Assembly: GCF_000423465.1 (NCBI RefSeq)
Contig: NZ_AUIA01000018.1
Location: 1-64,000 of the forward strand
Direction of reading: 5' to 3'
Length of the DNA stretch: 64,000 bases
Source of the DNA: Propionicicella superfundia DSM 22317
GTDB taxonomy: Bacteria > Actinomycetota > Actinomycetes > Propionibacteriales > Propionibacteriaceae
Shown here: in pieces, positions 42,877 to 48,555 of the stretch
Layout: every line of letters begins with the position of its first letter
How positions within the stretch are numbered: the stretch's first letter is position 1
Program-made: the position numbers and the translations under genes
The notes under the pieces: model-generated
Told to the model about the DNA's origin: nothing
What the model saw: only the letters and a program-made list of their open reading frames with translations
The model's database searches: none

Positions 42877-42904
42877 CAGCGCGTGGGAATTTGTGGGGTG
42901 CGTC

Positions 42905-43855
42905 ATGAACGACCGATACGACGACATGTACCAGGCCGCGTCCAGGTACTACGTCCAGGGGGAGACGATGCAGAGCATCGCCCGCCACCTCGGGCTCTCG
43001 CGATCTTCGGTCTCCAGACTGCTGAAGAATGCGCGCGAGACCGGACTCGTCCGCATCAGTCTCGCCGAGCAGAGCGGCTCGCAGTCCCCGGCGGCGAAGG
43101 CCATCGGCGATGCGTTCGGTGTCCGGGTCCACATCATCTCGGTGCGCGACAGCGCCAACGAGTACGTCCGTTTCGACCAGGTCGCCCGGCTCGCGGCCCG
43201 GCTCATCACCGAGGCGGTCGGCGACAACATGCTGATCGGGGCCGCGTGGGGTGTGACGGTCGCCAACGTCGCCCGGCATCTCGGTCACCGCTCGCTGGTG
43301 GGCAGCAGCATCGTCCAGCTCAACGGCGGCGCGAACTCGCACAGCACCGGGATCCCGTACATAGGGGAGATCCTCGAGACGATAGGAGAGGCCTTCGACG
43401 CCCGCGTCGTCCACTTTCCCGTCCCGGCGTTCTTCGACTACGCCGAGACCAAGGCGGCCATGTGGCGGGAACGGTCCATCCAGTACGTCCTCAACAAACT
43501 GGCGCATCTGGACATCGCGATCTTCGGCGTGGGGTCGCCCCAGGGCGCGGTGCCGTCCCAGGTGTACACCGCCGGCTACTTCGACCCCGACGAGATCGCC
43601 CGCATAACCAAGCGGGGCATCGTCGGGGACGTGTGCACCGTCCTGCTGCGCGAGGACGGTTCCTGGGAGGACATCGATTTCAACCACCGCGCGTCGGGCG
43701 TCACACCGCGCGATCTTCGCAAGGTCCCGAAGCGCATCTGCGTCGTGGGCGACCCGCGGCGGGCGCCCGCCCTGCTGGGGGCGTTGCGGGCGGGCGTCGT
43801 GACGCACCTCGTCGTCGACGAAGGGACCGCTCGGCTCGTCCTCGACCGGATGTGA
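42905..43855 (+). CDS. SorC/DeoR-type sugar-binding transcriptional regulator
   Basis: 316 residues from ATG 42905 (an in-frame GTG at 42893 is also possible). N-terminal HTH: AASRYYVQGETMQSIARHLGLSRSSVSRLLKNARETGLVRI. The C-terminal sugar-binding domain has IGAAWGVTVANVARHL, NGGANSH, and IFGVGSPQGAVPS, typical of SorC effectors that bind phosphorylated sugars. It is convergent with the phosphoribulokinase operon, separated by two 81-bp repeats, and may regulate that operon. Confidence 0.88.
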   Translation: MNDRYDDMYQAASRYYVQGETMQSIARHLGLSRSSVSRLLKNARETGLVRISLAEQSGSQSPAAKAIGDAFGVRVHIISVRDSANEYVRFDQVARLAARLITEAVGDNMLIGAAWGVTVANVARHLGHRSLVGSSIVQLNGGANSHSTGIPYIGEILETIGEAFDARVVHFPVPAFFDYAETKAAMWRERSIQYVLNKLAHLDIAIFGVGSPQGAVPSQVYTAGYFDPDEIARITKRGIVGDVCTVLLREDGSWEDIDFNHRASGVTPRDLRKVPKRICVVGDPRRAPALLGALRAGVVTHLVVDEGTARLVLDRM

Positions 43856-44052: not shown

Positions 44053-44922
44053 TCAGTCCCGGTCGAGGGCGCGGCGGCGGCGATCCATGATGCGCAGGAT
44101 CATCGGCGTGAAGATCAGTTGCATGGCCAACTCCATCTTGCCGCCCGGCACCACGATGGTGTTCGCCCGCGACATGTAGGAGTCGTGCAGCATCGACAGC
44201 AGGTACGGGAAGTCGATACCGCGCGGATTCGCGAACCGGATGACGACGATCGACTCGTCGGGCGTCGGGATCCAGCGGGCGACGAACGGGTTGGACGTGT
44301 CGACGACGGGAACCCGCTGGAAGTTGATGTGCGACCGCGTGAACTGCGGGCAGATGTAGTGCACGTAGTCGTTCATGCGCCGCAGGATCGTGTCCGTGAC
44401 CGCCTCGGTGGTGTACCCGCGTTTCGCCCGGTCGCGGTGGATCTTCTGGATCCACTCGAGATTCACCACCGGCACCACGCCGATGAGCAGATCGACGTGC
44501 TGGGCGACGTTGGCGTCGTCGGTGACGACACCGCCGTGCAGGCCCTCGTAGAAGAGGACGTCGCTCGACGGCAGATCCTCCCAGGCGGTGAAGGTACCCG
44601 GGTCCTGCCCGTACGGGGCCGCCTCCGTCGTGTCGTGAAGGTAACGCCGCACCTTGCCGGAGCCGGTCTCGGCGTACGACGCGAACGTCTGCTCCAACTC
44701 GGGGAACAGGTTCGCCTCGGGGCCGAAGTGGCTCAGCGTCCCTCCCGACTCGGCGATCCGCTTGGACATCTCGACGCGGTCGTAGCGGTGGAAGCTGTCA
44801 CCCTCGATGAACGTCGCGTCGACCCCTTCCCGGCGGAAGATCCCCGAGAAGGTCTGCATGACCGACGTCGTCCCCGCCCCGGACGAGCCGGTGATCGCGA
44901 TGATGGGATGTTTCGTTGACAT
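44053..44922 (-). CDS. prk: Phosphoribulokinase (proteobacterial octameric type)
   Basis: 289 residues. ATP-dependent phosphorylation of ribulose-5-phosphate to ribulose-1,5-bisphosphate. P-loop GSSGAGTTS at 12-20; IEGDSFHRYDR holds the catalytic Asp42 plus His45 and Arg49; LFYEGLHGG, WIQKIHRDRAKRGYTTEAV, NFQRVPVVDTSNPF and FANPRGIDFPYLLSM follow the classical CbbP sequence closely. All key residues I can check are present. No RuBisCO is in the window. Located 26 bases after the FBPase-like gene, so the two are co-transcribed. Confidence 0.9.
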   Translation of the reverse strand: MSTKHPIIAITGSSGAGTTSVMQTFSGIFRREGVDATFIEGDSFHRYDRVEMSKRIAESGGTLSHFGPEANLFPELEQTFASYAETGSGKVRRYLHDTTEAAPYGQDPGTFTAWEDLPSSDVLFYEGLHGGVVTDDANVAQHVDLLIGVVPVVNLEWIQKIHRDRAKRGYTTEAVTDTILRRMNDYVHYICPQFTRSHINFQRVPVVDTSNPFVARWIPTPDESIVVIRFANPRGIDFPYLLSMLHDSYMSRANTIVVPGGKMELAMQLIFTPMILRIMDRRRRALDRD

Positions 44923-44948
44923 GGTGCCTGGCCCTCCTCGGCGAGTGG

Positions 44949-45998
44949 TCACTCGCCCCGATCGTCGAACAGGCCGCGCTCGGCGAACAGCGGCGACGTG
45001 TACGTGCGATGGGACGTCTCATCCGTGTGGTAGTCCTCGATGCGCGAGACCTCCTTGGCAGACCCGAAGATGAACGGGCTGTGCTGGTAGAGGTCGGTCG
45101 GCACCGTGTCGAGGGGCGACGCCACACCGGTCGTCACCCTGCCCCCGGCCTGCTGGACGACGAAGGCGACGGGGTCGACCTCCGGGAGCAGCAGGAGCTT
45201 GCCGTGCCGCAGGTCTGTGCGGATCAGGCGCGGCGACAGGAACACGCCTCCACGCATGAGGATCCGGTGGCAGTCGGCGACCAGGGATGCCACCCACCGC
45301 ATGTTGAAGTCCTTGCCGCGGTCTCCGGACGAGCCGCGCAGGCACTCGTCGACGTACCGCTTCACCGGGGACTCCCAGAAGCGCGCGTAGGAGGAGTTGA
45401 TGTGGAAATCGGTCGTCTGCTCCGGGATCCGGATCTGCGGATGGGTCTGCAGCCACTCGCCGGTCAGCGGGTCGAGGGTGAACCCGTGAGTGCCGTGCCC
45501 CAGTGTGAGGACGAGCATCGTGGACGGTCCGTAGATGGCGTAGCCGGCCACCACCTGGGTCGAGCCCGGCACCAGGAAGTCGGTCTCGCAGGCGCTCTGG
45601 TCCCCGCTGGTCCGCAGGATCGAGAAGATGCTGCCCACGGTGCCGTTGAGATCGATGTTCCGCGCACCGTCCAACTGGTCGCAGATCAGGGCGTAGTGTC
45701 CCCGCGGGATGAACCGCGGCGGGCAGATCGGGCCGTTGCTCTTGTCGGACAGCAGGCCGCAGGTCAGCCCGGTGCGGGACACCGAGGTGCTGAAGATCTC
45801 GAGGGCCTCCTCGTCGAGCGACTGCGGCGGCTGATCGGGGACGACGCCGAGTCTGCCCTGGGCGATCCGCTTCGAGATGAGCTTGCAGGCCGTGGCGACG
45901 GCCAGCACCAGGCTGTTCAGATCGCCCGTGGTGGTGCAGGACTGCGCGCGGCGCTGGTCGATCAGGAACTGCGTGAGGGTCTTGTACTCGTGGATCAT
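44949..45998 (-). CDS. Class 1 fructose-1,6-bisphosphatase family protein with altered metal site
   Basis: 349 residues from ATG 45998, where homology begins (YKTLTQFL). The FBPase fold is clear: CDQLDGARNIDLNGTVGSIFSI, and near the C-terminus VDPVAFVVQQAGG, then DLYQHSPFIFGSAKEV. Active-site positions differ from canonical FBPase: SEE becomes SDK, DPLDGSS becomes DQLDGAR, and the glutamate of VEQAGG is Gln. The two aspartates of the D-x-L-D motif remain. Ordinary FBPase activity is therefore uncertain; another sugar bisphosphate or a non-catalytic role is possible. Directly upstream of phosphoribulokinase. Confidence 0.78.
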   Translation of the reverse strand: MIHEYKTLTQFLIDQRRAQSCTTTGDLNSLVLAVATACKLISKRIAQGRLGVVPDQPPQSLDEEALEIFSTSVSRTGLTCGLLSDKSNGPICPPRFIPRGHYALICDQLDGARNIDLNGTVGSIFSILRTSGDQSACETDFLVPGSTQVVAGYAIYGPSTMLVLTLGHGTHGFTLDPLTGEWLQTHPQIRIPEQTTDFHINSSYARFWESPVKRYVDECLRGSSGDRGKDFNMRWVASLVADCHRILMRGGVFLSPRLIRTDLRHGKLLLLPEVDPVAFVVQQAGGRVTTGVASPLDTVPTDLYQHSPFIFGSAKEVSRIEDYHTDETSHRTYTSPLFAERGLFDDRGE

Positions 45999-46011
45999 CG
46001 CGCGCCCCCGG

Positions 46012-46098
46012 TCACCGCGTCCAGGCCTGCCGCGGCGCACCGGCGACAGGACGATCCGGCGGGTCACCGAGCGGCCTGCGGCTCTGCGAATCGGTCAT
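46012..46098 (-). CDS. Putative 28-residue leader peptide upstream of the FBPase-like gene
   Basis: ATG 46098 is preceded at five bases by AAGGAGGG, the strongest Shine-Dalgarno sequence in this operon. The frame encodes 28 residues, starting MTDSQSRRPLGDPPDRP, and stops 13 bases before the FBPase-like ATG. It is Pro/Arg-rich with no hydrophobic segment. It may couple translation into the downstream gene or act as a leader peptide. Existence of the peptide is inferred only from the ribosome-binding site and spacing. Confidence 0.4.
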   Translation of the reverse strand: MTDSQSRRPLGDPPDRPVAGAPRQAWTR

Positions 46099-46168
46099 GA
46101 ACACCCTCCTTGCTGAAGGTGCCTCCATCGTGTGGCCCGGGACGGACGGCCACCCGGGATTCGGCAAA

Positions 46169-46186
46169 GTTGCACGCTTGCGCAAC
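46169..46186 (-). promoter_or_regulatory. Dyad upstream of the FBPase-like/phosphoribulokinase operon
   Basis: GTTGCACGCTTGCGCAAC is an imperfect 18-bp dyad with perfect GTTGC/GCAAC ends. It lies 70 bases before the leader-peptide ATG, where a promoter would be expected, and shares GTTGCAC with the region in front of the SorC-type gene. Confidence 0.4.
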
Positions 46187-46224
46187 AGGACGCCGCCCCA
46201 CCGCGCGCCTTGGACGCGTGCCGG

Positions 46225-47085
46225 TCAGCGCTGGACGGAGTCCCGGTACGCGCGCAGCAGCCAGGGCCAGTCGGTCTGGATGGCGTCGACGCCGAGGTCG
46301 AACAGCGGCTGCCACGCCGCAGCGGGACAGTCGAAGATCGCGTCCTCGTCCTCGTAGCCTCCGAACTGGGGGATTCCCGTCGTGAGCGTCACCGAGTTGA
46401 CGAGGATGAACAGTCCCCGGCGGTGGTAGCCCTCGATGACGTCCGGATCGAACCACGGACTCTGCGGCGTCGTGGTGATGAGCTCCAGCCCGACGGTGTT
46501 GAGCTCGTCCAGGCGCAGGACGTCCTCGACCTCCTCCTCGGTGCTGCAGATCGGAACGAACGGGTACTTCGTGGGGTGGCGCCGCAGCCGTGAGATCGCC
46601 TCCATCTCCCACGCGGGAGCCTTCAGCATCAACTGGCCCGGCATGCGCAGGCCGTCGAGGGCGACCAGAAGCTGGGGCCACCGCCACCACGAGCGGTCGA
46701 TCGTGAACAGCACCGGGCCACCGGCGAACTTGCCCAGCAGTTCGAGCAGGGGCTGGACGCGCGCCGTCCGGCCCGGGCGGTCGCGCCAGATGTAGGACTG
46801 CTGCCGCACCTCGGTCGCGGTCAGCGTCTGGATGTTGCGCTCGATGCCGAGATGTTCGGGCTCGAACCCGTCGTGGAACGCCCAGAAGTACATGTCGGCC
46901 GACGCGCTCACCGGGATCTGCACGACCTCCGCCCCGCTGCGGACGGCGGCGCGCACCGCCCCGATGGTGTTCGGCGCGATACTGGCGTGGCCGAGGCCGC
47001 GGTGGGCCACGACGGCGGGTTTGGCTCGGCGCAGAGTCTCACCGAGCTGAGAGTTGAGGGCGGCGTAGTCCGGAAGTCCCAACAT
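46225..47085 (-). CDS. Glycerophosphodiester phosphodiesterase-like protein with altered metal site
   Basis: 286 residues from ATG 47085. The GDPD TIM-barrel pattern is visible: VVAHRGLGHASIAPNTIGAVRAAVRSGAEVVQIPV, FHDG, LFTIDRS and IQTDWPWLL at the end. Where active enzymes have the metal-binding E-x-D (as in IELDV) this protein has VQIPV, and the usual PENT is APNT. The two histidines are retained. Catalysis is doubtful or different. It is upstream of, and on the same strand as, the FBPase-like and kinase genes, with 126 bases between its stop and the leader-peptide ATG. Confidence 0.7.
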   Translation of the reverse strand: MLGLPDYAALNSQLGETLRRAKPAVVAHRGLGHASIAPNTIGAVRAAVRSGAEVVQIPVSASADMYFWAFHDGFEPEHLGIERNIQTLTATEVRQQSYIWRDRPGRTARVQPLLELLGKFAGGPVLFTIDRSWWRWPQLLVALDGLRMPGQLMLKAPAWEMEAISRLRRHPTKYPFVPICSTEEEVEDVLRLDELNTVGLELITTTPQSPWFDPDVIEGYHRRGLFILVNSVTLTTGIPQFGGYEDEDAIFDCPAAAWQPLFDLGVDAIQTDWPWLLRAYRDSVQR

Positions 47086-47165
47086 GCTCGACCTTCCCTG
47101 GTCCCGAGCGGGATGCTCCACGGGGACAGTCTAGCGAGACCCGGCCCGTGGACACTGTGGGTCGG

Positions 47166-48455
<1,290 letters not shown>

Positions 48456-48555
48456 GAGAACTCCTTCACTCACGCGGCTCCTGCCGCAATCGCCGTCGAT
48501 CATGCGCAACACTACAGGCGCGTCGTGGCAGAACCGGATCTTCTTCGAGAAGTAC

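Follow-up and report, generated by a model that had tools for sequence, protein, structure and literature searches.

Two described systems come close to a locus in Propionicicella superfundia DSM 22317, where, within the 64,000 nucleotides analysed here (the window; contig NZ_AUIA01000018.1), a gene for a homologue of class I fructose-1,6-bisphosphatase (FBPase) with an altered active site directly precedes a phosphoribulokinase (PRK) gene. The first is the cbb operon of Cupriavidus necator pHG1, in which a class I FBPase gene also stands directly upstream of the PRK gene on one strand. The second is the Calvin cycle variant of the Solemya velum symbiont and Methylococcus, which is treated in excerpts of PMC4287430. 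For the Calvin cycle of chemosynthetic symbionts, pyrophosphate-dependent phosphofructokinase (PPi-PFK) was proposed there as the substitute for both FBPase and sedoheptulose-1,7-bisphosphatase. In vitro, the enzyme from Methylococcus removes phosphate from both fructose 1,6-bisphosphate (FBP) and sedoheptulose 1,7-bisphosphate (SBP), and this pyrophosphate-linked chemistry was argued to save energy. In propionibacteria, according to excerpts of PMC2909200 and PMC7650540, PPi-PFK serves gluconeogenesis.

The two genes at the centre of this work are:

44949-46067, minus strand: class I FBPase homologue in the CbbF position (PF00316 and PF18913 over cut-off; residues; predicted model)
44053-44922 (long open reading frame (ORF) to 44952), minus strand: canonical PRK (CbbP) of the proteobacterial type (PF00485 and NF011997 over cut-off; match to 1a7j)

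The PRKs of the host and C. necator are 74% identical. The host differs from C. necator in that RuBisCO and other cbb genes do not adjoin the pair, FBPase residues are altered, and genes for a glycerophosphodiester phosphodiesterase (GDPD)-like protein and a SorC-type regulator lie nearby. The host resembles the PPi-PFK variant in that PPi-PFK is present and neither GlpX nor a class I FBPase of the normal type was found, but it keeps an FBPase-fold protein beside PRK, which is absent from the variant as the excerpts of PMC4287430 present it.

Our preferred explanation, to which we assign a probability of about 0.6, is that the pair represents the cbbP and cbbF genes of a Calvin pathway with form II RuBisCO, that PPi-PFK carries out the FBP/SBP step, and that CbbF is a weak or non-catalytic partner. 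In this scheme, PPi-PFK would dephosphorylate FBP (and SBP) in the host's Calvin cycle, and CbbF would thereby be freed from catalysis. It would then persist in the PRK/RuBisCO module with weak catalysis or none, perhaps as a sugar-phosphate-sensing or scaffolding subunit.

A form II RuBisCO in the host and PRK loci in its relatives

The initial annotation described the PRK as canonical, and this was borne out by a full-length match over the curated equivalog cut-off (NF011997, 494 bits versus 362) and a nearly full-length match to the solved PRK 1a7j (412 bits). The same annotation saw no RuBisCO, which is true of the window. A search of the host genome (3.62 Mb, 23 contigs), however, gave three RuBisCO-family matches, one of which, on contig 1 (C1:189108-190484; 859 bits to 5c2c), is a form II gene of full length whose product is carboxylating as judged by sequence only. 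What we take to be the characteristic motifs, KPKLG, GGDFIKNDEPQGNQ and GYGKMEG, are intact by eye. The other two matches (G000:C3:302046-302885 and G000:C2:496004-496834) are RuBisCO-family homologues with 27-29% identity to the host form II enzyme. Near the host RuBisCO, no gene family common to the relatives' PRK loci was found except RuBisCO itself. The suggestion of a Calvin-type remnant with degenerate partners therefore survives in part: the locus is Calvin-type and the active sites of the FBPase-like and GDPD-like proteins are altered, but RuBisCO is present. A remnant without RuBisCO is ruled out by the gene on contig 1.

PRK matches (NF011997) were found in 32 of the 198 genomes of the host's actinobacterial family, host included, and in 9 of its 29 genera. 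Thirty PRK loci from 29 PRK-bearing relatives were compared, some of them on short stretches. An FBPase homologue lay directly upstream of PRK on the same strand in all 30, and a form II RuBisCO (69-90% identical to the host's) was in the same stretch in 19. At three loci, a 30-31% RuBisCO homologue proved to be form I, with the small subunit and CbbX; the large subunits at two of these loci share 84% identity with the one at the third. Eight stretches gave no RuBisCO with the host form II query. Transketolase, class II aldolase, a HAD phosphatase, LysR and a two-component pair were also recognised at these loci by Pfam, and ribulose-phosphate epimerase (RPE) by eye. The pairing extends beyond the family: of 575 PRK loci confirmed in named genomes, the 80 best were compared, and 78 of these have a class I FBPase gene immediately 5' of PRK.

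One locus of the same family (L046; G137:C1, 15151-16692), in a one-contig genome of 5.7 Mb, carries FBPase, PRK, RbcS and CbbX together with only about the last 32 codons of a form I RbcL, and no run of N is present. With the form II query, this genome had no RuBisCO-family match. It is apparently a natural loss of the RuBisCO large subunit.

Active site and fold of the FBPase-like protein

Residues were numbered as in pig FBPase (chain 1cnq). The window protein carries the changes E97D, E98K, P119Q, S123A, S124R and Y264S and retains D74, D118, L120, D121, G122, R243, K274 and E280. We take E97, D118, D121 and E280 to be the metal ligands, E98 and D74 to activate the attacking water, and S124 and Y264 to belong to the substrate site. 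On this assumption, the ligand set is incomplete, with E97 replaced by Asp. Since D118, D121 and E280 are retained, the metal site is altered at E97 and not emptied. In the water-activating pair, D74 is kept and E98 has become Lys. The initial annotation had read SDK for SEE and DQLDGAR for DPLDGSS, and both replacements are real. A third reading, Gln for the metal-binding Glu of VEQAGG, was a misalignment, as the Glu of that motif corresponds to E289, which is where the Gln stands, and the ligand E280 sits in LLYEANP, kept as LLPEVDP.

Apart from these residues, the protein shares the fold and Pfam domains of class I FBPases. Pfam scores were 118.6 bits for PF00316 (cut-off 34.8) and 119.4 for PF18913 (cut-off 27), and the predicted model (pLDDT 84) has the full FBPase fold (Z 43.5, rmsd 1.8 over 311 residues to 1lev). 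The protein fell under the NCBIfam equivalog cut-offs, with a best score of 328.8 versus 349. Its gene is an open frame of 372 codons with a third-position GC content (GC3) of 0.93, like that of neighbouring genes. Of 61 columns with at least 95% conservation among 30 CbbF proteins, the protein keeps 54, compared with 33 of 128 poorly conserved columns; the seven highly conserved columns lost include E97, P119 and Y264. The loss is thus site-specific, and the protein is most likely a weak or non-catalytic partner.

Altered PRK-linked FBPases within and beyond the family

Five core residues (E97, E98, D118, D121 and E280) were scored in the PRK-linked FBPases of the family. Left out of the counts were three partial genes (L051, L073 and L209), L043, L125 (the second FBPase-PRK locus of G183) and fragments in G169 and G179. 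All five residues were kept in 14 of the 29 readable rows, the window included. One was changed in two rows (E98D in L055 of G217; D121N in L063 of G118), and two were changed in the window protein. The remaining 12 rows, from 12 genomes, had four or five of the residues altered, always with E98G, D121H and E280 to N or T, and with D74R as well. These 12, termed clade B, form a single clade with support of 100/100 from which the window protein is excluded. Judging by its residues, clade B is without plausible hydrolase chemistry and is a clearer pseudoenzyme than the window protein. Form II RuBisCO was present at all 12 clade-B loci and is likewise found at loci whose FBPase is intact (L047, L066 and others).

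The clade-B pseudo-FBPases are under purifying selection. Their dN/dS was 0.12-0.30 in five pairs versus 0.02-0.33 in seven pairs of other groups; the values overlap, those of clade B being like the others or at most about twice as high at like dS. An altered FBPase is not unique to the window, and altered core residues recur in PRK-linked FBPases. Two further variants were seen in the family. A pair of relatives (L067 and L073, in G173 and G184) has E289T in otherwise canonical PRK-linked FBPases. A partial FBPase-like gene without E97 and E98 (L043, G010:C116) runs off the contig end near a form II RuBisCO and a two-component pair; no PRK was seen on this short contig.

In the wider sample, the best 80 of the 575 PRK loci confirmed in named genomes, 77 had a readable FBPase site. 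All five core residues were kept in 69 of them, and at least one was altered in the other eight, namely four from Nocardia (E98Q, E280G), L147, L153 (E98D only), L173 and L205. As a control, class I FBPases were counted in 18 genomes chosen from this sample, eight with an altered sampled copy and 10 without. There were 29 matches, and all 10 altered ones were PRK-linked. The eight FBPases without PRK in their short flanks all kept the five core residues; the control is small, since there were only these eight unlinked copies and all came from the chosen Proteobacteria. Paraburkholderia sacchari has an altered second PRK-linked copy in addition to an intact linked and an intact unlinked FBPase. 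In Paraburkholderia caribensis, an altered plasmid FBPase adjoins PRK and form I RuBisCO; its D121N is stable, and its alignment at 97/98 varies between alignments.

A quick tree of 121 rows was built with the active-site columns excluded. At least two altered core residues were found in 22 rows and require six changes of state, one of them being clade B; at least one was found in 25 rows, which requires nine. The branches of the window protein, L205, L242 and the Paraburkholderia protein are long, so their exact positions are unsure. The true number may differ from six by one or two, since L173, for example, was placed next to clade B. The linked FBPase appears to have repeatedly lost core catalytic residues while being retained. 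No paper on this FBPase pattern or on Calvin genes in the host's family was found in searches that covered open-access papers only.

Enzymes for the FBP/SBP step

The host PPi-PFK scored 703 bits against a cut-off of 395 (NF005121). PPi-PFK was over this cut-off in 186 of the 198 family genomes and in 11 of the 12 clade-B genomes. GlpX was not found in the host genome and was present in 28 of the 198. In 11 of the 12 clade-B genomes, the altered copy was the only class I FBPase match. The twelfth, G174, has a second, intact FBPase-PRK locus and GlpX. In this genome, a locus with the clade-B pseudo-FBPase, PRK, RuBisCO and SorC (L050) was seen along with the separate intact FBPase-PRK locus, which has a two-component pair (L072). 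If PPi-PFK handles FBP and SBP, CbbF would be freed from catalysis.

Among the eight genomes outside the family with an altered sampled copy, only Variovorax dw_308 had a second, intact class I FBPase (class I enzymes counted). Outside the family, the idea of a backup enzyme is a conjecture.

Neighbouring genes

The other features around the pair are:

42893-43855, plus strand: SorC/DeoR-type sugar-binding regulator (PF04198, 179.4 bits versus a cut-off of 27)
46012-46098, minus strand: speculative 28-codon leader ORF with a strong AGGAGG site, just 5' of where the FBPase-like gene probably starts
46225-47121, minus strand: GDPD-like TIM-barrel protein (PF03009 and PF16387 over cut-off; homologue comparison)
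47166-48512, minus strand: citrate synthase, some 45 bases 5' of the GDPD-like gene

Coordinates and Pfam matches agree with the initial description of three same-strand genes (PRK, FBPase-like and GDPD-like) convergent with a SorC-type regulator. Citrate synthase is on the same strand at this short distance, so it may be co-transcribed with the GDPD-like, FBPase-like and PRK genes. The probable true start of the FBPase-like gene is the ATG at 45998, the GDPD-like gene likely starts at 47085, and GGAGG precedes the ATG of PRK. The short ORF at 46012-46098 might, speculatively, encode a leader peptide of the FBPase-like gene. The SorC protein probably regulates the PRK/RuBisCO module; SorC homologues (59-62%) were found beside form II RuBisCO in four relatives' loci (L042, L050, L057 and L064).

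The GDPD-like protein shares the GDPD and DUF4996 domains, both over cut-off, with 3i10-like glycerophosphodiester phosphodiesterases, but has Q-I-P in place of the E-x-D pair. The VQIPV noted at this site in the initial annotation is real, as nine of 11 homologues (51-58% identity) keep E-x-D and two have K-I-D. The gene was absent from all 30 of the relatives' PRK stretches, some of which are short, and a match to it anywhere was found in 56 of the 198 family genomes, host included, many of the matches being weak. Of the trio, the FBPase-PRK pair thus recurred in 30 of 30 loci and the GDPD-like gene in none of these stretches, so a conserved trio was not borne out as regards the GDPD-like gene. 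The GDPD-like protein appears to be a neighbour and not a conserved partner of the pair.

Weighing of the explanations

Several observations weigh against CbbF as a weak or non-catalytic partner with PPi-PFK doing its work. The host RuBisCO is on a different contig from the pair and does not adjoin it, and contact between the FBPase-like protein and PRK is hypothetical. The window protein retains D118, D121, E280 and D74, and with three of four metal ligands in place, residual or changed activity is possible. The host yielded no class I FBPase besides the window's, in a search that did not extend to classes III and V or to inositol-phosphatase-like enzymes. One clade-B genome (G186) lacks both a PPi-PFK match above the cut-off and a further FBPase of the tested kinds (GlpX, class I), while GlpX is present in G118, whose linked FBPase has one altered residue, and in G010. 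Relatives with an intact linked FBPase (e.g. G121 and G172) also are without GlpX and have PPi-PFK; these enzymes can therefore make the loss possible, but they do not predict in which lineages it occurs. Finally, no genome of the same genus was among the relatives searched, and the dN/dS values thus cover clade B and the other groups and not the window gene.

The first alternative is that the FBPase-like protein is still a phosphatase, in which E97D is tolerated and S124R and Y264S shift activity to SBP or another sugar bisphosphate. The kept residues (D74, D118, L120, D121, G122, R243, K274 and E280), the intact fold of the predicted model, and the fact that neither GlpX nor another class I FBPase was found in the host all fit this explanation. 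However, the change of E98 to Lys and of E97 to Asp, the altered substrate site at Y264 and S124, and the score under the equivalog cut-offs argue against it, and we consider it rather unlikely.

Another possible explanation is that the gene is redundant through PPi-PFK and is decaying with no function left. The very long branch of the window FBPase could reflect this, as could the adjoining GDPD-like gene, which is also without its metal pair. A gene in decay does not sit well with the long open frame and neighbour-like GC3, with the far better retention of the most conserved columns than of the least conserved ones, or with the purifying selection on clade-B homologues, and decay therefore seems improbable to us.

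The distinct route using ribulose 1,5-bisphosphate that the initial annotation proposed, with PRK, the FBPase-like and the GDPD-like protein acting together in, e.g., adenosine monophosphate (AMP)-type or RuBisCO-like chemistry, could draw on the two further RuBisCO-family homologues of the host, but nothing found calls for it, and it is very hard to credit given the full form II RuBisCO, which shares the stretch with FBPase-PRK in the 19 relatives' loci, the absence of the GDPD-like gene from all 30 of the relatives' stretches (some of them short) and the ordinary Calvin set (transketolase, aldolase, CbbX, RbcS) that their loci add.

Implications

A broader proposal, which we offer only tentatively and with less than even confidence, is that CbbF would also serve the PRK/RuBisCO module in a way that needs no catalysis, in Proteobacteria as well as in Actinobacteria. 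Given PPi-PFK, GlpX or another FBPase to dephosphorylate FBP and SBP, the linked copy could then lose catalysis yet keep this other role, and pseudo-FBPases with a binding or sensing function for PRK or RuBisCO would have arisen repeatedly.

The puzzle of a PRK without RuBisCO resolves into an ordinary Calvin pair, and what remains of interest is that PRK-linked FBPases have lost catalytic residues repeatedly. If this pattern is confirmed, some bacterial cbb operons would carry a pseudoenzyme whose regulatory or structural role has gone unrecognised, and the Calvin cycle of the host's family would rely on pyrophosphate-linked sugar-phosphate chemistry.

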